64,000 bases of DNA. Origin: Phycicoccus sonneratiae (lineage in GTDB: Bacteria; Actinomycetota; Actinomycetes; Actinomycetales; Dermatophilaceae). The DNA is taken from positions 310,001 to 374,000 of the forward strand of contig NZ_JAFDVD010000003.1 of assembly GCF_016887965.1 (NCBI RefSeq), given 5' to 3'. Under the pieces are notes generated by a model. The model worked only from the letters and a program-made list of their open reading frames with translations. It did no database searches and was not told where the DNA came from. The translations under genes were made by a program, and so were the position numbers. Below are positions 8,002-15,388 of the stretch, one piece after another (position 1 is the first letter of the stretch; each line of letters opens with the position of its first letter).

Positions 8002-8070
8002 CCCGCCAACCTAGCCGCGGCCGGGGGTCCGACGGGGCGTCCCGGGCACCGTCGCTGGCAGTCTGGAGCC

Positions 8071-9126
8071 GTGCAAGCCCTCGTCTACGACGCCTTCGGC
8101 GCCGACCCGCGCGTCACCGAGCTGCCCGACCCACCCGCCCCGCCCGGCGGAGCCGTCGTGCGGGTCACCTCGACCGGTCTGTGCCGCAGCGACTGGCACG
8201 GCTGGGCGGGGCACGACCCGGACATCGCGACGTTCCCGCACACCCCCGGGCACGAGCTCGCGGGGGTCGTGGAGGCCGTCGGCGACGGAGTCGCCCGCTC
8301 GTGGGTCGGACGCCCGGTCACCGCGCCGTTCGTCCTCGCCTGCGGCGCCTGCGCCACGTGCGCGGCCGGCGACGGCCAGGTCTGCCCCCACCAGCGCCAG
8401 CCCGGGTTCACCGACCCCGGGTCGTTCGCCGAGCGGGTCGTCGTCCACGCGGCGGAGACCAACCTCGTCGACCTGCCGGCGGAGGTCCCCCCGTCCGTCG
8501 CCGCCGGCCTCGGCTGCCGGGTCGCGACGGCCCACCGGGCCGTCACCGGGCGCGGCCGGGTCGCCGAGGACGAGACGGTGGTCGTGTTCGGGTGCGGCGG
8601 AGTCGGACTCGCGGCCATCCAGGTCGCGGCGGCTCGGGGCGCCCGGGTCTGCGGCGTCGACCTCGACGCCGGCTCCCGCGCGCTCGCGCTCGAGCTCGGC
8701 GCGGAGCGCGTCCTCGACGGCACCCTCGCCGAGGCCGAGCTCGTGCAGGCGGTCCGCGACTGGTCGGGAGGCGGCGCGCACCTGTCGGTCGACGCCGTGG
8801 GCTCGCCGCAGACCTGCCGCACCGGCATCCTCTCTGCGCGCCGCCGGGGACGGCACGTCCAGGTCGGGCTGCTGCCCCCGGCCGCGGGACGGGCCGAGGT
8901 GCCGATGGAGCGCGTCATCGGCTGGGAGCTCGACGTCCTCGGCAGTCACGGGATGGCCGCCGCCGACTACCCCGGCCTGCTCGCCGACGTCGTGGGCGGC
9001 CGCCTCGACCTCGCCGCCCTCGTGGCGCCCGGCGACCCGGTGGGACTCGAGGAGGCCGGCCGGCTGCTCGTCGCGATGGGCGACAGCGCGTCGCGGGGGA
9101 TGCAGCTCGTCGACCCGGCCCGCTGA
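8071..9126 (+). CDS. zinc-dependent alcohol dehydrogenase (MDR family)
   Basis: 351 residues, medium-chain dehydrogenase/reductase. Catalytic zinc ligands are Cys38 (TGLCRSD) and the His-Glu of HTPGHELAGVV. The structural zinc loop is intact with four Cys in CGACATCAAGDGQVC, and the Rossmann motif is FGCGGVGLAAIQVA. An acidic residue after the second strand (CGVDLDAG) favours NAD(H). Substrate is unknown. The GTG start at 8071 was chosen because the family N terminus begins there; the frame upstream runs through the divergent mgtC region and is spurious. Confidence 0.92.
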   Translation: MQALVYDAFGADPRVTELPDPPAPPGGAVVRVTSTGLCRSDWHGWAGHDPDIATFPHTPGHELAGVVEAVGDGVARSWVGRPVTAPFVLACGACATCAAGDGQVCPHQRQPGFTDPGSFAERVVVHAAETNLVDLPAEVPPSVAAGLGCRVATAHRAVTGRGRVAEDETVVVFGCGGVGLAAIQVAAARGARVCGVDLDAGSRALALELGAERVLDGTLAEAELVQAVRDWSGGGAHLSVDAVGSPQTCRTGILSARRRGRHVQVGLLPPAAGRAEVPMERVIGWELDVLGSHGMAAADYPGLLADVVGGRLDLAALVAPGDPVGLEEAGRLLVAMGDSASRGMQLVDPAR

Positions 9127-9247: not shown

Positions 9248-9263
9248 ATACCCCGTGCCGTAT
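9248..9263 (+). promoter_or_regulatory. CsoR/CstR-type operator A
   Basis: ATACCCCGTGCCGTAT is a 16-base imperfect palindrome of the ATACCC-N4-GGGTAT type used by the CsoR/CstR (DUF156) family. It lies 60 bases before the 9324 methyltransferase. Its right half runs into TATCCA, a near -10 element, the same overlap seen at the other three operators. It is the least symmetrical of the four sites. Confidence 0.6.
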
Positions 9264-9323
9264 CCAGCGCCGTGATGCGCGGCACATCCGACGCGGGAGC
9301 CCGGGAGCCGTCACACTGGTCGC

Positions 9324-9983
9324 GTGCCCGTCCTCGGAGTGCGCCGGTGGTGGGACGAGCGCGCCCTGCCCCGGCTGACCCACCGGTCCTGCCAGGGAGC
9401 CGACGTCGACCGCTGGCGGGCCCCGGTGTGCGCCGCGGCCACGGGCGTCGTCCTCGACGTCGGCTTCGGCTCCGGCCCCAACCTCGAGCACTACCCGGCG
9501 CAGGTCACGCGCGTGCTGGCCGCCGAGCCGTCGGACCTCGCGTGGGAGCTCTCCGGACCGCGGAGGGAGGCGTTCGGGCGCCCCGTGGAGCGCACGACGC
9601 TCGACGCCGCCGACCTGTCGGCACTGGCCGACGGCTCGGTCGACACGGTCGTCACGGCGTGGGCGCTGTGCACCGTGCCCGAGGTCGAGACCGCGCTCGC
9701 CGAGGCGCGACGGGTGCTGCGACCGGGCGGGGCGCTGCTGTTCGTCGAGCACTCGCTCGCACCGGACGCGCGGACGGTGCGGTGGCAGCGGCGCGTCCAG
9801 CCGGTGTGGGGACGGGTGGCCGGCGGCTGCCACGTCGACCGCGACCTGCCCGCCGTCATCGCCGCGGCGGGCTTCGCCGTCGACGTCGAGCGGGCCCGGG
9901 CCATCGCCCCGGGGCCGCTACGGGCCTGGGGCTGGTTCGTCAGCGGAACCGCCCGACCGGAGGAGTCCGGCCGGGCGGGGTGA
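9324..9983 (+). CDS. METTL7-like SAM-dependent methyltransferase
   Basis: 219 residues, class I methyltransferase. Motif I is VVLDVGFGSGPNLEHYP. Later come DGSVDTVVTAWALCTVPE and RRVLRPGGALLFVEHS, then WQRRVQPVWGRVAGGCHVDRD. This succession (GSGPN; DGSVD.VV...LC.V; RVLRPGG...EH; W..V...W....GC...R) is that of the METTL7/TMT1 and bacterial PmtA-like group. Human METTL7 proteins methylate alkyl thiols and hydrogen sulfide; other relatives methylate phospholipids or quinone precursors. An operator of the CsoR/CstR type lies upstream, so a thiol or sulfide substrate is an attractive inference. The GTG start at 9324 fits the start of family similarity. Confidence 0.85.
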   Translation: MPVLGVRRWWDERALPRLTHRSCQGADVDRWRAPVCAAATGVVLDVGFGSGPNLEHYPAQVTRVLAAEPSDLAWELSGPRREAFGRPVERTTLDAADLSALADGSVDTVVTAWALCTVPEVETALAEARRVLRPGGALLFVEHSLAPDARTVRWQRRVQPVWGRVAGGCHVDRDLPAVIAAAGFAVDVERARAIAPGPLRAWGWFVSGTARPEESGRAG

Positions 9984-9995
9984 GGGCCGCGCGCG

Positions 9996-10157
9996 TCAGC
10001 GACCGAAGAGCTTGCCGAGGAACCCGCCGCTCGGCGTGCTCTCGTGCCCGGTGCAGCGGTCGGCGGACGGGACGCCGCGCATCACCTGGTCGACGTGCTG
10101 GCCGCAGCCGGCCCAGGTCGTCTTGCCGCACTGGCGACAGGTCACGGCTCGGCACAT
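9996..10157 (-). CDS. 53-residue cysteine-rich protein (zinc-ribbon-like)
   Basis: Begins MCRAVTCRQCGKTTWAGCGQ and ends GGFLGKLFGR. It has six positions able to bind metal or react with sulfur in the first 35 residues: Cys2, Cys7, Cys10, Cys18, His21 and Cys35. Cys7-x2-Cys10 with Cys18-x2-His21 looks like a small zinc knuckle. The start is the ATG at 10155-10157, preceded by a GAGGAGT Shine-Dalgarno. I recognise it as a widespread short uncharacterised protein, not a named family. Operator B lies 43 bases upstream with a TATGCT -10, so it has its own promoter besides possible read-through from the methyltransferase gene. Its role is unknown; shared control with a CstR-like sensor suggests metal or sulfane-sulfur handling. 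Confidence 0.85.
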   Translation of the reverse strand: MCRAVTCRQCGKTTWAGCGQHVDQVMRGVPSADRCTGHESTPSGGFLGKLFGR

Positions 10158-10199
10158 GGGGTACTCCTCGGGGTTCGGGTGCTGGGCAACGTCGCCAGC

Positions 10200-10215
10200 A
10201 TACCCTAGGGGGTAT
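10200..10215 (-). promoter_or_regulatory. CsoR/CstR-type operator B
   Basis: ATACCCTAGGGGGTAT, nearly perfect palindrome. It starts one base after the stop codon of the 10216 methyltransferase and precedes the 53-residue gene. On the minus strand its end merges into TATGCT (10202-10197), a good -10, so a bound repressor would cover the promoter. Confidence 0.75.
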
Positions 10216-10839
10216 CTACTCCGCCAACCGTCGCAGGACCACCACGGTGTCGAGCGCGGGCCGGGCCGCCCCCTCGACCTCGCGTTCGCGCAGCCGCGAC
10301 GACTCCACCTCGACCGGCAGGCCGGCGACGGCGGCGACGACGTCGTCCGGGTCGTGGAGGACGGCCGCGTCCTGCGGGCCGCCCGCGCCCTCGGTCAGGT
10401 TGCGGGCGGCGTGGCAGACGACGAGCACCGTGCCCCCGGGCGCGGCGGCCGCCACGCCAGCGGTCAGCGCGCGCCGCCACTGGTCGTCGGGCAGCTGGAG
10501 GTAGGCGAAGAGGACGAGGTCGTAGCCGTCACCGCCGGTCGGTGCCGGGGCCGCCCCGAGGGCGTCGGCGACGACCGCCCGGAAGGGCCCCGCGTCGGGC
10601 CCCAGCCGCTCGGCGGCGATCCCCCGCGCGCGCTCGACGGCCACCGGCGAGAAGTCGGCAGCGGTGGCGTCCCAGCCGCGCTCGGCGAGCCAGAGGGCGT
10701 TGCGGCCCTCCCCCGCGGCCACGTCGAGCACCCGCCCCGGCGGCAGCGGAGCGCAGATCTCCTCGACGAACCGGTTGGGCGTGCTCGACCAGACGAGCTC
10801 GGCCCCGGCGTAGCGGGCGTCCCAGGTCGTGGCGTCCAT
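10216..10839 (-). CDS. TehB/thiopurine-type SAM-dependent methyltransferase
   Basis: 207 residues, class I methyltransferase with motif I VLDVAAGEGRNALWLAERGW (about residues 37-56), the acidic SAM-ribose loop DATAADFS, and FAYLQLPDDQW. The opening WDARYAGAELVWSSTPNRFVEE is typical of the group that includes TehB and thiol/thiopurine methyltransferases. The ATG at 10837-10839 is seven bases past the stop of the CstR-like gene, so the two form an operon. Methylation of a sulfur or chalcogen compound (sulfide, thiols, tellurite) is a reasonable guess from family and context; it is not shown. Confidence 0.88.
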   Translation of the reverse strand: MDATTWDARYAGAELVWSSTPNRFVEEICAPLPPGRVLDVAAGEGRNALWLAERGWDATAADFSPVAVERARGIAAERLGPDAGPFRAVVADALGAAPAPTGGDGYDLVLFAYLQLPDDQWRRALTAGVAAAAPGGTVLVVCHAARNLTEGAGGPQDAAVLHDPDDVVAAVAGLPVEVESSRLREREVEGAARPALDTVVVLRRLAE

Positions 10840-10846
10840 CAGGGCC

Positions 10847-11107
10847 TCAGGCCAGGGAGAGGAAGAGCTTCTCCATCGACCCGACGTCCATCGTGCCGCC
10901 CTCGGGGTCGGTGATGCACTGCCGCAGGCCGAGCGCGATGACGGCGAAGCCGGCCCGGTCGAGGGCCTTGGACACTGCCGCCAGCTGGGTGACGATGTCC
11001 TGGCAGTCGCGGCCGTCCTCGATCATCTTGAGGATGCCGCCGATCTGGCCCTGGGCGCGCTTGAGCCGCTTGACCACGGCCTGCATCTCGGTCTGGTCGA
11101 GCTCCAT
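10847..11107 (-). CDS. CsoR/CstR-family (DUF156) transcriptional regulator, CstR-like by its cysteines
   Basis: 86 residues, all-helical copper-sensing/persulfide-sensing repressor family. The N-terminal helix has the family core KRLKRAQGQIGGILKMIE. Cys35 (GRDCQDIVTQL) and Cys64 (GLRQC) sit 29 residues apart, as in the family. Copper sensors have a His four residues before the second Cys; here that residue is Gly60. Lack of that ligand, with both cysteines kept, is the pattern of CstR, which reacts with persulfides and sulfane sulfur. It has its own operator (C) 35 bases upstream. It heads the pair regulator-methyltransferase, with the thioredoxin gene just upstream. Sulfur sensing is the better inference; metal sensing is not excluded. 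Confidence 0.92.
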   Translation of the reverse strand: MELDQTEMQAVVKRLKRAQGQIGGILKMIEDGRDCQDIVTQLAAVSKALDRAGFAVIALGLRQCITDPEGGTMDVGSMEKLFLSLA

Positions 11108-11141
11108 GACGGGCCTCCTGAGGTGGACGACGGGCCCGATG

Positions 11142-11157
11142 GTACCCCGGGAGGTAC
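11142..11157 (-). promoter_or_regulatory. CsoR/CstR-type operator C (autoregulation)
   Basis: GTACCCCGGGAGGTAC, palindromic over both halves, extended by one paired base on each side (11141-11158). On the minus strand it runs into TACCAT (11144-11139), a -10 element 31 bases before the regulator start. This implies that the regulator represses itself. Confidence 0.7.
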
Positions 11158-11206
11158 CTGCGGGAGGGCTCTGCGGCGCAGGACCCGGAATGTGGTGCGG
11201 GAGGGG

Positions 11207-11572
11207 TCAGCCGGCCTGCTGCGCGGCGACCTGCGCGCGGACCTCGTCCATGTCGAGGTTCTTGATGCCCTCGACGACCTGCTCGAGCGCAGCCGGGGGC
11301 AGCGCGCCGGCCTGGCGGAAGACGAGGATGCCGTCGCGGAAGCCCATGAGGGTGGGGATCGAGGTGATCTGCGCGGCGCCGGCGAGCGCCTGCTCGGCCT
11401 CGGTGTCGACCTTGCCGTGGACGACGTCGGTGTGCGACTCGCTCGACTTCTCGAAGGTGGGGGCGAACTGGCGGCACGGGCCGCACCAGGAGGCCCACCA
11501 GTCGACGAGGACGATGCCCTCGTCGCCGACGGTCTTCTCGAAGGTCTCGGTCGTGAGGTCCACGGTGGCCAT
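11207..11572 (-). CDS. thioredoxin
   Basis: 121 residues, thioredoxin fold with the canonical active site WCGPC (Cys30, Cys33) and the cis-proline segment ITSIPTLMGF. It has no signal peptide, so it is cytoplasmic. The ATG at 11570-11572 has a GAGGAG Shine-Dalgarno six bases away; a longer frame to 11614 lacks this. Operator D lies 49 bases upstream, overlapping a TATCCT -10, which puts this thioredoxin under the CstR-like regulator. In that setting reduction of protein or low-molecular-weight persulfides is a plausible job. The tail (MDEVRAQVAAQQAG) is slightly longer than in the housekeeping form, which suggests a dedicated paralogue. Confidence 0.93.
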   Translation of the reverse strand: MATVDLTTETFEKTVGDEGIVLVDWWASWCGPCRQFAPTFEKSSESHTDVVHGKVDTEAEQALAGAAQITSIPTLMGFRDGILVFRQAGALPPAALEQVVEGIKNLDMDEVRAQVAAQQAG

Positions 11573-11620
11573 TGCTGTCTCCTCGGAGATCGGGGACGGG
11601 TGTTCGGACTGCACAACAGG

Positions 11621-11636
11621 ATACCCCTATGGGTAT
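11621..11636. promoter_or_regulatory. CsoR/CstR-type operator D in a divergent promoter
   Basis: ATACCCCTATGGGTAT, the best palindrome of the set. On the minus strand it merges with TATCCT (11623-11618), the -10 of the thioredoxin gene. On the plus strand it merges with TATATT (11634-11639), a possible -10 toward the DUF2202 gene. It could therefore control both directions. Confidence 0.8.
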
Positions 11637-11790: not shown

Positions 11791-12516
11791 ATGAACCGCA
11801 CGATCCGCACCACTGCCGCCGCCCTCGGGGCCGGCGCCCTCCTCGCCGGCGGGCTCGCCGCCGGTCAGGCCTTCGGCGTCACCGGACCCGGTACGGCCCC
11901 CGCCATCGCCACGAGCACCGCGGCCGCCACCGCCACCCCCGCCCTCACCGAGGCCCTGCGCTTCGCGAGCGACGAGGAGCGGATGGCTCGCGACCTCTAC
12001 GCCGCGATCGCCGACCGCTACGACGACGCCCTCCCGTTCAGCCGGATCACCACGAGCGAGCAGCGCCACCTCGACGCGGTGAGCACGCTCCTCGCCCGCT
12101 ACGGCATCGCCGACCCGAGCGCCGGGTCGACCCCCGGGACGTACGCCGACACCGCCGTGCAGGACCTCTACGACACCTGGTGGTCGCAGGCCCAGCGCTC
12201 GCTCGACGACGCGTACGACGTCGGCGTGGCGCTCGAGCAGCGAGACATCGCCGACCTCGAGACGACCATCGCCGCCGACCTCCCGAGCGACGTGGACGCC
12301 GTCCTGGCCAACCTGCTGCGCGGGTCGCGGATGCACCTCCGTTCCTTCACCGGCGCCGCGAACGGCGAGACCGCCACCGGCGGCGGGATGATGGGTGGCC
12401 GCCGGTCCTCCGACGGCACGACCGGCCGGAGCCGCGGTGGGATGACGGGCCGCTGGGGCGCCGGGACCGCTGCCGACTCGACCGGCTCCGGCGAGTGCCC
12501 GATGCTCGACGACTGA
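11791..12516 (+). CDS. secreted DUF2202 ferritin-like protein with Gly/Met-rich tail
   Basis: 241 residues. A Sec-type signal peptide (MNRTIRTTAAALGAGALLAG, with GLAAGQAFG after it) is followed by a four-helix DUF2202 domain. Acidic and histidine residues suited to a di-metal site are seen in FASDEERMARDLY, TTSEQRHLDAV and, near the end, SRMHLRS. The last 50 residues are low complexity, with GGGMMGG, GGMTGRW and a final ECPMLDD. The ATG at 11791 has a GAGGAG Shine-Dalgarno. It is next to a two-component system whose sensor loop is also Met-rich, which hints at an extracytoplasmic metal (perhaps copper) role. DUF2202 has no established activity. Confidence 0.87.
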   Translation: MNRTIRTTAAALGAGALLAGGLAAGQAFGVTGPGTAPAIATSTAAATATPALTEALRFASDEERMARDLYAAIADRYDDALPFSRITTSEQRHLDAVSTLLARYGIADPSAGSTPGTYADTAVQDLYDTWWSQAQRSLDDAYDVGVALEQRDIADLETTIAADLPSDVDAVLANLLRGSRMHLRSFTGAANGETATGGGMMGGRRSSDGTTGRSRGGMTGRWGAGTAADSTGSGECPMLDD

Positions 12517-12520
12517 CGCG

Positions 12521-13630
12521 TCAGCCGCGCACCGGCAGCAGCGGGAGGCGCAGGACGAACCGTGACCCGAGGCCCGGGCCGTCCGAGGCCGCGCTCAGCT
12601 CGCCGCCGTGCGCCCGCGCGATGCCTCGGGCGACCGTCAGGCCGATGCCGGACCCGGCGTCGGTGCGCTCGCGTCGTCGTTCGGCCACCCGGTAGAAGCG
12701 CTCGAAGACCCGCTCGAGGTCGTCCGCGGCCAGCCCCTCGCCGGTGTCCGAGACCATGACCACCCGGGAGCCTCCGTCGTCACGGACCTCGACCGTGACC
12801 CGGCCGCCCGGTGGCGTGGCCCGCACCGCGTTGCCGACGAGGTTGGTGACGACCTGGGCGATGCGGTCGGGGTCGACGACCGCCTCGACCCTCTCGTCCG
12901 CCGACACGACGAGCTCGAGCCCGGCGTCCTCGGCCTGGGGGCGAAGGCGTTCGGCCGCCGCCGCGACGACCGCGGCGAGGTCGGCGGCTCGCGGCTGGAG
13001 GGCGAGCCTGCCCTCCTCGGCCCGGGAGAGGGCGGAGAGGTCGTCGGCGAGCCGACGCAGCCGGCGCACCTCGTCCGAGACCTTGCCCAGCTCTTTTGGG
13101 CCGGTCGGCAGGACGCCGTCGATCATCCCCTCGACGTAACCGTCGACGACGGTGAGCGGCGTGCGCATCTCGTGCGCGACCTCCCCGAGCAGCCGCGTGC
13201 GGCGGGCCTCGGTCTCGGCGAGCGCCCGGCCGAGGGTGTTGACGTCGTCGGCGAGGGCGGCGAGCTCTGCCTCGTGCGGCGGCTCGACCCGCACGTCGTA
13301 GCGGCCCGCGGCGATGAGCCGCGTGGTCACACCGACGCGCTGCAGCGGCCGGACGAGGCGGGTGGCCGCGAGGATCCCGAAGCCGGCGGCCGCGACCACC
13401 CCGACGAGGAGCCCGATGCCGATCGCCTGGGTCACGGCGTCGACGACCTGGGTGCGCACCTGCTGCTGCGTGCCGGAGCCCGGGCCGCGGCCCATCATCA
13501 TCGCGCCCATGCCCGTCGAGCGGTCGAAGATGACCGGCGTCAGGGCCCGGACCACGAGGACGGTCGCGAGTCCACCGAGCAGGGCCACGACGAGGTGGCT
13601 GAGGACGAGACGGACGGCGACGCGGTTCAC
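12521..13630 (-). CDS. sensor histidine kinase with a short Met-rich outer loop
   Basis: 369 residues. Membrane segments lie at about 8-30 and 70-92 with a 40-residue outer loop containing GMGAMMMGRGPGSG (residues 40-53). A HAMP domain follows (about 93-145), then HisKA with phospho-acceptor His153 (VAHEMRTPLT), and HATPase with NLVGNAVRATPPGG, DTGEGLAADD and GSGIGLTVARG. The GTG start overlaps the response-regulator stop (GTGA), so the pair is coupled. The very short, methionine-rich loop suggests direct sensing of a soft metal, but no ligand can be assigned. Confidence 0.93.
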   Translation of the reverse strand: MNRVAVRLVLSHLVVALLGGLATVLVVRALTPVIFDRSTGMGAMMMGRGPGSGTQQQVRTQVVDAVTQAIGIGLLVGVVAAAGFGILAATRLVRPLQRVGVTTRLIAAGRYDVRVEPPHEAELAALADDVNTLGRALAETEARRTRLLGEVAHEMRTPLTVVDGYVEGMIDGVLPTGPKELGKVSDEVRRLRRLADDLSALSRAEEGRLALQPRAADLAAVVAAAAERLRPQAEDAGLELVVSADERVEAVVDPDRIAQVVTNLVGNAVRATPPGGRVTVEVRDDGGSRVVMVSDTGEGLAADDLERVFERFYRVAERRRERTDAGSGIGLTVARGIARAHGGELSAASDGPGLGSRFVLRLPLLPVRG

Positions 13631-14346
13631 GGCTCCCCCTCGGGGCGTGGGAGGAACTTGTAGCCGACCCCGCGGACCGTCCCGACGAGCCGGGGGTCGG
13701 CGGCGTCGTCACCGAGAGCACGGCGGATGCTGCGGACGTGCACGTCGACGACGCGTGGGTCGCCGTAGAAGTCGTACCCCCAGACCTCCTCGAGGAGCTG
13801 GGCCCGGCTGAACACCCTTCCGGGAGAGGCCACCAGCGCGTGGAGCAGGTCGAACTCGAGCGCCGACAGCTGTACCTCCCGCCGGCCGACCCGCAGCTCG
13901 CGGCGATGCGGGTCGAGGACGAGGCCGTCGAAGCGCAGGACCCCGTCGTCCGGCGGGGCTCCGGGTGCGGTCTCCCGACGGCGACGCAGCACGGTGCGTA
14001 CCCGGGCGACGACCTCGCGGGGGCTGAACGGCTTGGTGACGTAGTCGTCGGCGCCGGTCGCGAGGCCGACGAGGGTGTCGGCCTCCTCGGCGCGCGCGGT
14101 GACGAGGATGACGTAGACGTCGGAGTCCCGGCGCAGCGTGCGCAGCACGTCGAGGCCGTCGAGGTCGGGCAGGCCGACGTCGAGGAGGACGAGGTCGGGG
14201 GCCGTGCCGTCGGCGGCCAGGACACGGCGCAGGGCCTCGGCACCGGTGGCCGCCTCGGTGACGAGGTGCCCCTCGGCCTCCAGGTAGGCGCGCAGCACCG
14301 TGCGGATCTCCTGCTCGTCGTCGACGACGAGGACGCGTCCGGCCAT
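13627..14346 (-). CDS. OmpR/PhoB-family response regulator
   Basis: 239 residues. The receiver domain has the acidic pair Asp9-Asp10, phospho-acceptor Asp56 (LLDVGLPD), the Thr of VTAR and the Lys of TKPFSP. A winged-helix DNA-binding domain follows (VQLSALEFDLLHALV, ending with the DVHVRSIRRALGDD and GVGYKF segments). The ATG at 14344-14346 has AGGAGG upstream; the longer frame is not family-like. It is cotranscribed with the sensor kinase and is divergent from the Rsm22-like gene 55 bases away. Confidence 0.94.
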   Translation of the reverse strand: MAGRVLVVDDEQEIRTVLRAYLEAEGHLVTEAATGAEALRRVLAADGTAPDLVLLDVGLPDLDGLDVLRTLRRDSDVYVILVTARAEEADTLVGLATGADDYVTKPFSPREVVARVRTVLRRRRETAPGAPPDDGVLRFDGLVLDPHRRELRVGRREVQLSALEFDLLHALVASPGRVFSRAQLLEEVWGYDFYGDPRVVDVHVRSIRRALGDDAADPRLVGTVRGVGYKFLPRPEGEP

Positions 14347-14401
14347 CCGACCTCCTGGTGCGACTGCGCGGCGCCCGGGTCCAGCGTAGGAGGATGCGGC
14401 C

Positions 14402-15388
14402 ATGGCCCTCACGCTGACCCGCGCCCTCGAGGCGGTCCTCGACGGCGAGGACGCCGAGGCCCTGCGGCGGGCGACGGCGCGGCTCATCGAGGTGTACCGC
14501 TCCGGGGCCCCACCGGAGGAGCAGGCGCTGCGCGATCCCGTGTCCGCGGCGGCGTACGCGGCCTACCGGATGCCGGCCACCCACGCCGCCGTGTCGCGGG
14601 TGCTTCGGTACGCGATGGAGGTCGCACCCGACCTGGCCCCGCGCTCGCTCGTCGACGTCGGCGGCGGCACGGGTGCGGCCGCGTGGGCGGTGGCCGAGGC
14701 GTTCCCTGAGGTGGCCTCCGTGGAGGTGCTCGACGCATCCGCCGACGCCCTGTCGCTCGGGGCGCGCATCGCACGCAACGGACCGCCCGTCGTCGCGGGC
14801 GCGCGCTGGACCCGGGCCGACTTGACCGTGAACAGCCTTCTGCCGCAGGCCGACCTGGCGACCATCAGCTACGTCCTCGGCGAGCTGCCCGGCGACCTCC
14901 CGGACCGGGTCGTCGACGCGTCGGTCGCGGCGGCGGGCGTCGTGGCCGTCGTCGAGCCGGGCACGCCGCGGGGCTTCGCCGCCGTGCACGCCGCGCGCGA
15001 ACGCCTGCTGGGCGCCGGGTGGCACCTCGTCGCTCCCTGCCCGCACGAGGACGCCTGCCCGCTGGCGGCCGCCGGCGACTGGTGCCACCTCGCGGTGCGC
15101 CTCGACCGGACCGCACTGCACCGCCGCCTCAAGGGCGGCGCCCTGGGCCACGAGGACGAGAAGGTGTCGTACGTCGTGGCCCGCCGGGAGCCCGCCGCGC
15201 TGCCCGGGGGTCGCGTCCTGCGGCACCCGGTGACCCGCAAGGGGATGGTCCGGCTCGAGCTCTGCCGGGCGGACGGCACGGCCGCCGCCGAGGTCGTCAG
15301 CAAGCGCCAGGGCCCGCGTTACCGGGCCGCGCGCCACGCCGGGTGGGGGGACCGGTGGCCGCCGGAGGGAACGGACGCGGCAGACTGA
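14402..15388 (+). CDS. Rsm22/METTL17-type small-ribosomal-subunit methyltransferase-like protein with Fe-S cysteines
   Basis: 328 residues. The SAM-binding-type motif is SLVDVGGGTGAAAWAVAEAF, and the family core follows (ISYVLGEL, VVEPGTPRGF). Four cysteines, Cys213, Cys219, Cys228 and Cys288, form the CPHxxxC...WCHLAVR...LC arrangement that binds a [4Fe-4S] cluster in mitochondrial METTL17. Rsm22 proteins act in small-subunit ribosome assembly; bacterial members are untested. The start ATG at 14402 has AGGAGG nine bases upstream. Monocistronic, between a two-component system and HU. Confidence 0.88.
   Translation: MALTLTRALEAVLDGEDAEALRRATARLIEVYRSGAPPEEQALRDPVSAAAYAAYRMPATHAAVSRVLRYAMEVAPDLAPRSLVDVGGGTGAAAWAVAEAFPEVASVEVLDASADALSLGARIARNGPPVVAGARWTRADLTVNSLLPQADLATISYVLGELPGDLPDRVVDASVAAAGVVAVVEPGTPRGFAAVHAARERLLGAGWHLVAPCPHEDACPLAAAGDWCHLAVRLDRTALHRRLKGGALGHEDEKVSYVVARREPAALPGGRVLRHPVTRKGMVRLELCRADGTAAAEVVSKRQGPRYRAARHAGWGDRWPPEGTDAAD

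Follow-up and report, generated by a model that had tools for sequence, protein, structure and literature searches.

A candidate CstR-type sulfane-sulfur regulon in Phycicoccus sonneratiae, with two methyltransferases and a conserved 53-residue Cys protein

In Streptomyces coelicolor, the two-Cys CsoR-like repressor ScCsoR (SCO0620) binds the operator ATACCn6GGTAT, regulates its own gene, controls a persulfide dioxygenase (PDO) and a rhodanese, and is released by persulfidation of Cys37; the circuit, in the part of the account used here, has four genes, encoding the regulator, PDO, rhodanese, and a sulfite transporter (PMC7533328). The CstR proteins of Staphylococcus aureus and Enterococcus faecalis are likewise di-thiol persulfide sensors of the CsoR family; that of E. 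faecalis controls two rhodaneses and a CoA-persulfide reductase, and neither a methyltransferase nor a small Cys protein appears for either CstR in the portion of the account surveyed (PMC9405070). The thiol-responsive CsoR-like protein TTHA1953 of Thermus thermophilus is described, in the sections consulted, as controlling a dispersed regulon with a methyltransferase, a thioredoxin, and Sox-linked genes, through half-sites ATACC/GGTAT two bases apart (PMC10318464). Finally, the copper CsoR of S. lividans and RicR belong to the same family and use the same half-sites, and the RicR regulon is also dispersed and includes a small Cys protein, but both are HxxxC copper sensors in the excerpts used (PMC3902906, PMC10470581). 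Here, we analyzed a 64-kb stretch of the P. sonneratiae genome (the window, C17:310001-374000), in which a His-less two-Cys CsoR-family regulator lies among two methyltransferase genes, a thioredoxin gene, and the gene of a 53-residue Cys/His protein (Cys53), with four copies of an ATACCN6GGTAT-type site (N6, half-sites six bases apart; Table 1). This cluster is very probably one island of a CstR-type sulfane-sulfur regulon, judging from the regulator, the sites, and their conservation. The switch is of a known and well-supported kind, with new parts: in contrast to the four-gene ScCsoR circuit, two methyltransferases, a thioredoxin, SQR-like and CoA-disulfide-reductase (CoADR)-like genes, and Cys53 carry or share the operator here, at several loci, and the half-sites are six bases apart instead of the two of TTHA1953.

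A first-pass annotation of this DNA had placed the four operators and the order of the genes around them, and a pattern scan of the window recovered both. At one mismatch or fewer, the window holds three sites, every one inside the cluster; in 100 first-order simulations of the window, the mean was 0.11 and no run exceeded one. With up to three mismatches, no clear excess was seen in the window (48 sites, 38.4 expected, and 48 reached in seven of 100 shuffles), so that only near-perfect matches are informative. The weak site at 11142 is more than noise: five sister genomes (L136-L140) keep its variant GTACCN6GGTAC between -53 and -56 relative to the start of the regulator. The annotation had also merged each operator with a -10-like TANNNT. 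This overlap stands for TATGCT, TACCAT, and TATCCT, but not at 9248, where TATCCA does not fit the pattern. In relatives, the overlapping -10 element points towards the gene rather than away from it at Cys53 (51 against 19 of 70 sites) and at the regulator (28 against four of 38). The preference is weak at most for CoADR (16 against 12 of 29) and PDO (11 against seven of 25), and no direction was seen among the sites of the thioredoxin (10 and 10 of 21) or, clearly, of the METTL7-like methyltransferase MT7 (one and one of four).

The operator is not confined to this cluster. The whole genome (4.11 Mb, 33 contigs) has 24 matches to the search pattern ATACCCNNNNGGGTAT at two mismatches or fewer (three for the reversed pattern) and nine at one or fewer (none reversed); the site at 11142, with three mismatches to ATACCCNNNNGGGTAT, falls outside the count of 24. 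Seven of the nine best sites are at promoters of the putative regulon, two in the window and five elsewhere, including that of a pyruvate phosphate dikinase. The dikinase site, ~60-76 bp upstream of the gene, is also present in two sister genomes (L300:3157, L305:3141), and this central-carbon enzyme may belong to the regulon. Two other sites were set aside. A perfect N6 site at C25:334192 was discounted as an operator, since it overlaps the start of a tRNA-Gln gene and since at least seven sister genomes have the identical string at one place each, away from the regulator locus. The site at C4:40556 has no clear target, the assumed start of a DUF305 gene being ~530 bp off.

The genes behind these sites are named at the domain level, and anything more specific is putative. 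The PDO-like protein consists of Lactamase_B plus two rhodanese stretches. The SQR-like protein, so named from its Pyr_redox_2 domain, had no NCBIfam match at E 1e-15. The CoADR-like protein and the TehA-like channel are under their equivalog cut-offs (432 against 579 and 150 against 342, respectively). This distribution contradicts one part of the first-pass annotation, which had proposed detoxification by methylation rather than by PDO and rhodanese. Both are absent from the window only, and genes of both types are present elsewhere in the genome under the same operator; therefore, methylation would be an addition to oxidation and not its substitute.

The regulator has the CsoR/DUF156 fold domain (PF02583, 81 bits, cut-off 22.8), and the residues noted at first, Cys35, Gly60 in place of His, and Cys64, were borne out. 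We compared 47 sequences, made up of the window protein, a second His-less paralogue from the same genome, and the proteins of 45 loci picked for their similarity to the window protein. Neither Cys varies in any of them, and residue 60 is Gly in 40, Ala in three, Ser in two, and Thr in two, but never His. A PDB sequence search gave 7mq1 as the nearest solved chain, presumably the structure of pneumococcal CstR, and in five PDB alignments His occupies this position in all three chains that are not of the 7mq1 protein. The regulator thus lacks the Cys plus HxxxC copper site of CsoR and RicR, and its pseudopalindromic operator with G/C tracts lies at sulfur-detoxification-type genes, as described for CstR. 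An N6 site within 200 bp upstream accompanies 22 of 46 regulator matches at one mismatch or fewer and 27 at two or fewer, where the reversed pattern gave one; the 46 are the matches with enough upstream sequence, with locus L178 counted twice. At the level of sequence, these results support the earlier proposal of a CstR-type regulon for sulfide or persulfide stress.

A copper regulon of the RicR type, in which the repressor would sense Cu(I) and Cys53 would be a copper metallothionein like mycobacterial MymT, is a highly improbable alternative. It draws on the protein family and half-sites shared with copper CsoR, on RicR being the best NCBIfam match of the regulator, and on the control of the copper metallothionein MymT by RicR in the part of that account used here (PMC10470581). 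However, the RicR match (47 bits) is far under its cut-off of 175, the HxxxC motif is missing in all 47 homologues, genes of the PDO-, SQR-, rhodanese-, and CoADR-like classes carry the N6 operator, and a fixed C/W/G/H arrangement such as that of Cys53 would be unusual for a metallothionein. Moreover, the genome has a separate copper-type CsoR with the residues C-H-C, adjoining a P-type ATPase, and its site has a spacer of seven bases (N7) and not six: a perfect ATACCN7GGTAT palindrome (C33:112124-112140) lies 26 bases before its start, and the best N6 match at this locus has three mismatches.

This difference in spacing extends to the genus, where 14 of 16 homologues of the copper-type CsoR have an N7 site (zero or one mismatch) directly upstream, and each of the 12 genomes has such a site at one or more of them. 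The S. lividans copper CsoR consensus, ATATACCCCTNAGGGGTATAT, is likewise N7-spaced in the account cited (PMC3902906). In contrast, exact half-sites in the 45 His-less regulator loci are six bases apart in 67 cases and never at any other spacing from 0 to 15. The 80 Cys53 loci gave 108 pairs at N6, 12 at N5, and one at N7; in the window, two exact pairs were found, both N6, and none of its sites has the N7 spacing of the copper CsoR. Therefore, a single base of spacing seems to insulate the persulfide circuit from the copper circuit. The twelve N5 pairs (among L026-L105) hint that other genera may use yet another spacing.

Homologues of the regulator were sought in 58 genomes, and 45 loci were fetched. 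Most of the genus shares the cluster, and its operators are real and mostly kept in related genomes. The order in sister genomes is site-thioredoxin-site-(rhodanese)-regulator-TehB-site-Cys53, with MT7 and the dehydrogenase close by: the regulator and TehB-like genes adjoin in eight of 11, in 10, the thioredoxin either adjoins the regulator or is separated from it by a single rhodanese gene (the eleventh being a contig end), and Cys53 plus its operator is found in eight. SQR-, PDO-, or rhodanese-type genes lie within or beside the cluster in some sister genomes, the SQR-like gene being inside it in G008 and G007; in L148 and L151, which represent two related genera, the cluster includes a PDO-like gene.

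Sites with at most one mismatch within 250 bp upstream were counted for each gene class, with identical upstream regions counted once and genes labeled by their best match at E 1e-5; some PDO and rhodanese matches are only 30-40% identical, including many of the PDO matches beyond the closest relatives. Such a site was found for PDO in 25 of 31, SQR in seven of eight, CoADR in 29 of 45, thioredoxin in 21 of 29, rhodanese in 19 of 28, and TehA in 2/2 upstream regions. The regulator had it in 38 of 93, the second regulator in 0/1, Cys53 in 70 of 118 distinct regions, and MT7 in four of 13. Counts for neighboring genes were 4/5 for DUF2202 (partly shared with the divergent gene), 1/11 for the dehydrogenase, 2/10 for the response regulator, and 0/3 for the histidine kinase. 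The reversed pattern gave zero for every class. These counts also bear on a formaldehyde or electrophile regulon of the FrmR type, which would use the neighboring zinc dehydrogenase as detoxifier. An alcohol-dehydrogenase-like gene does precede the METTL7-like gene, here and in relatives, but the operator accompanies it in only the single case above, its score is 121 bits against a cut-off of 512.9 for mycothiol-dependent formaldehyde dehydrogenase, and the regulator reaches 30.1 bits where the FrmR equivalog asks for 133. We regard this explanation as hardly credible.

Table 1. Features of the cluster and operator sites elsewhere in the genome (window numbering unless a contig is given).
Feature	Position	Strand	Remarks
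Zinc alcohol-dehydrogenase-like protein	8011..9126	+	PF00107/PF08240; adjoins METTL7-like gene in relatives; membership doubtful
Operator 1	9248..9263	+	ATACCCCGTGCCGTAT; one mismatch to ATACCN6GGTAT; upstream of METTL7-like methyltransferase
METTL7/UbiE-like SAM methyltransferase (MT7), 219 aa	9324..9983	+	Pfam Methyltransf_11 9.2e-16
Cys53, 53 residues	9996..10157	-	No Pfam, NCBIfam, PHROG, or PDB match
Operator 2	10200..10215	-	ATACCCTAGGGGGTAT; no mismatches; Cys53 promoter; overlaps TATGCT
TehB-like SAM methyltransferase, 207 aa	10216..10839	-	Pfam Methyltransf_25 6.6e-11, TehB 3e-05; after regulator, one presumed operon
CstR-type CsoR-family repressor (putative), 86 aa	10847..11107	-	PF02583 8.4e-23; Cys35/Gly60/Cys64
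Operator 3	11142..11157	-	GTACCCCGGGAGGTAC; two symmetrical mismatches, GTACCN6GGTAC; presumed autoregulatory; overlaps TACCAT
Thioredoxin	11207..11572	-	TIGR01068 97.5 bits, cut-off 96.8; open reading frame open to GTG 11614
Operator 4	11621..11636	-	ATACCCCTATGGGTAT; no mismatches; thioredoxin promoter; overlaps TATCCT; may also serve divergent DUF2202 gene
DUF2202 protein	11791..12516	+	PF09968 4.2e-31; possible further member
Perfect N6 site	C21:20230		Between PDO-like metallo-hydrolase-rhodanese fusion (C21:18820-20196) and rhodanese + second regulator
Perfect N6 site	C21:22538		Upstream of SQR-like oxidoreductase (C21:21044-22501)
Perfect N6 site	C21:23949		Upstream of TehA/SLAC1-like channel (C21:23991)
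Perfect N6 site	C24:361193		Upstream of CoADR-like rhodanese protein (C24:359469-361181)
One-mismatch site	C29:11532-11547		Precedes pyruvate phosphate dikinase (C29:11608)

We propose that the reduced His-less two-Cys repressor would bind the ATACCN6GGTAT sites, several of them over a -10 element, and block transcription; persulfide or polysulfide would modify Cys35, with or without Cys64, upon which the repressor would leave and the whole set be switched on. The oxidizing arm would be encoded elsewhere in the genome (SQR-like protein, PDO-like-rhodanese fusion, rhodanese, CoADR-like rhodanese protein, and TehA-like channel), while the thioredoxin of the cluster would reduce persulfides. The two S-adenosylmethionine (SAM) methyltransferases would probably S-methylate H2S, thiols, or persulfides, and Cys53 could bind zinc and/or carry sulfane sulfur, its Cys2 being exposed once the start Met is removed. 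The weaker operator at the repressor's own gene may allow repressor synthesis before full derepression.

Methylation as well as oxidation is plausible. In relatives from several genera (L137, L140, L151/L216, L220/L238), MT7, a presumed METTL7-like enzyme, comes immediately after an SQR- or PDO-like gene, and in other genomes seven of 26 MT7 loci have, within ~1.5 kb, the operator or one of the sulfur genes in the reference set. Two actinobacterial proteins described in December 2025, MddM1 (210 aa) and MddM2 (204 aa), methylate H2S and methanethiol (MeSH) and are H2S-induced; the window methyltransferases are like them in size, SAM fold, and actinobacterial origin, a comparison of size and fold class only, and the words "regulator" and "CsoR" do not occur in the main text of that article (PMC12904073). 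No literature linking the mdd names with CsoR or CstR was found among the matches listed. Persulfide methylation is chemically feasible, since human TPMT methylates polysulfide and glutathione persulfide, according to the sections seen of that study (PMC13089183).

The TehB-like methyltransferase and the TehA-like channel, whose site is at C21:23949, share this operator system, which together with the Pfam TehB match (3e-05) could suggest a response to tellurite, selenite, or other chalcogen oxyanions. We consider this improbable: both proteins are below their equivalog cut-offs, the TehB-like one with 34.1 bits against 218 and TehA as given above, and most other genes with the operator resemble sulfide or persulfide enzymes. 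Selenide may be a side substrate and not the signal.

Several observations weigh against a persulfide regulon with a methylation arm. Of the 46 regulator matches, 19 have no site at two mismatches or fewer within 200 bp upstream, and the sister genomes G005 and G006 keep the thioredoxin-regulator pair without a site (at one mismatch or fewer), TehB, or Cys53 there. The genome also encodes two His-less regulators, either of which may act on a given site. As for the methyltransferases, none of 18 upstream regions of the TehB-like gene carries an operator, L184 being the single exception in another scan; the regulator is within 1.5 kb of the gene in eight of 29 loci from other genomes of the taxonomic family (best 30 loci taken), and a phylum-wide link of TehB with the operator was rejected, as the site is directly upstream in one of 29 loci from other genomes of the phylum. 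Linkage of MT7 is limited to homologues above 50% identity, with none below, and its nearest solved chain is a phospholipid N-methyltransferase; the nearest chains to the TehB-like protein are Slr1183 and the heterocyclic-toxin methyltransferase Rv0560c. With such diverse wider families and a linkage confined to close homologues, the methyltransferases could be housekeeping or xenobiotic enzymes without a sulfur role in an otherwise unchanged regulon, a serious but rather unlikely rival to the methylation arm alone. The position of MT7 behind SQR- or PDO-like genes in several genera and the H2S- and MeSH-methylating, H2S-induced MddM1/MddM2 argue against it.

The second His-less regulator (C21:20583-20873) adjoins the PDO-like gene. 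It is strongly diverged, with 46% identity to the window regulator, and RAQEV replaces the usual RAQGQ; it may bind DNA differently or be decaying.

Cys53 is the most conserved and least explained part of the cluster, and was given too little weight in the first-pass annotation. The window protein has no match in Pfam or NCBIfam (up to E 0.1) or in PHROGs (up to 1), its best PDB hit has E 1.1, with no solved structure matching, and 67 members of the family gave a best Pfam E of 0.015, for one member. Its predicted fold (mean pLDDT 81.9) is confident for residues 1-40 (~86-92), and Foldseek with this fold returned nothing under E 4.9; three core strings did not occur in a full-text search of 5.39 million papers. 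Residues M1, C2, C7, C10, W15, G17, C18, G19, H21, and C35 are invariant in 118 distinct of 127 copies (taken from the best 80 relatives, the loci of relatives, and two plasmids), and likewise in the 67-sequence alignment. This fixed C-C-W-C-H-C pattern differs from that of MymT.

At least 447 relatives of Cys53 were found in 84,980 species genomes, of which the best 80 were kept for locus work. In 46 of them, the operator lies no more than 250 bp upstream of Cys53 (none for the reversed pattern). One or more sites occur in 69 of the 80 loci, and a homologue of the regulator, at most ~4 kb away, occurs in 51. In a set of 296 genomes drawn from the phylum, 36 contain Cys53; 12 of the 29 loci returned from other genomes have a site, and 19 have, within ~1.5 kb, a site, a regulator, or one of the reference-set sulfur genes. 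In the genus g49, eight listed genomes lack Cys53 and none listed has it. Cys53 and the His-less regulator also occur together: with a regulator cut of 57 bits, chosen after the scores were seen, 36 of the 58 genomes have both, three and three have one alone, and 16 have neither (Fisher p=9e-9), and the corresponding counts for the 24 family members outside the genus are 15, 1, 0, and 8 (p=1e-5). Cys53 may be an accessory protein that binds sulfane sulfur or zinc.

Twelve loci (L030, L033, L036, L037, L045, L048, L058, L079, L081, L083, L096, L103) hold a second Cys53 that is only 40-44 aa long and lacks the GFFxRLFGR tail at its C terminus, so that the family has at least two forms; eight of the twelve have the operator, at one mismatch or fewer, within 250 bp upstream of the short form. 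Cys53 is also found in 66 plasmid records, 64 of them in ten actinobacterial genera and two without a name in the tally. They include plasmids of Rhodococcus, Curtobacterium, Clavibacter, and Arthrobacter, and the two inspected (L181, L182) have a rhodanese and TauE nearby. On the Curtobacterium plasmid pC1a, Cys53 is flanked by a "metal-sensitive transcriptional regulator" on one side and a rhodanese on the other; next come DsrE, a TauE exporter, trxA, and an MBL hydrolase. No gene was annotated under Cys53 in the 25 plasmid matches listed, for which the gene table is incomplete.

Taken further, these elements can be joined into a wider reading that we advance only tentatively and judge somewhat less than an even chance as a whole. 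Cys53 would found a new family of tiny sulfane-sulfur proteins, common across Actinomycetota, in which Cys2 (N-terminal once Met is removed), CxxC, GCGxH, and C35/H38 would shape a persulfide carrier or sink of the zinc-knuckle type that cooperates with thioredoxin, rhodanese, and PDO. The CstR switch would also drive S-methylation of H2S and persulfides by the two methyltransferases, and so be the missing regulator of actinobacterial methanethiol and dimethylsulfide production, with N6 versus N7 spacing keeping the copper circuit apart. On the main reading, the regulon ties many Actinobacteria to a single sulfane-sulfur switch. Two of its elements did not appear in the literature surveyed: a conserved family of small Cys/His proteins missing from the curated libraries and, for Actinobacteria, genes of S-methyltransferase type under a putative persulfide repressor. 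Should H2S prove to be a substrate of the methyltransferases, biogenic methanethiol and dimethylsulfide would come under the control of sulfide sensing, and the locus would offer a direct test of what turns on the S-methyltransferases recently discovered in Actinomycetota.

Among the remaining genes of the cluster, the thioredoxin probably starts at ATG 11572 rather than at GTG 11614, as GAGGAGA precedes the former. The DUF2202 gene and a two-component system come after the cluster (window 11791-14487). In the sister genome G010, the DUF2202 gene and the response regulator each have an operator in front of them (L310:1113, 3884), which suggests that in some species these genes are part of this response.

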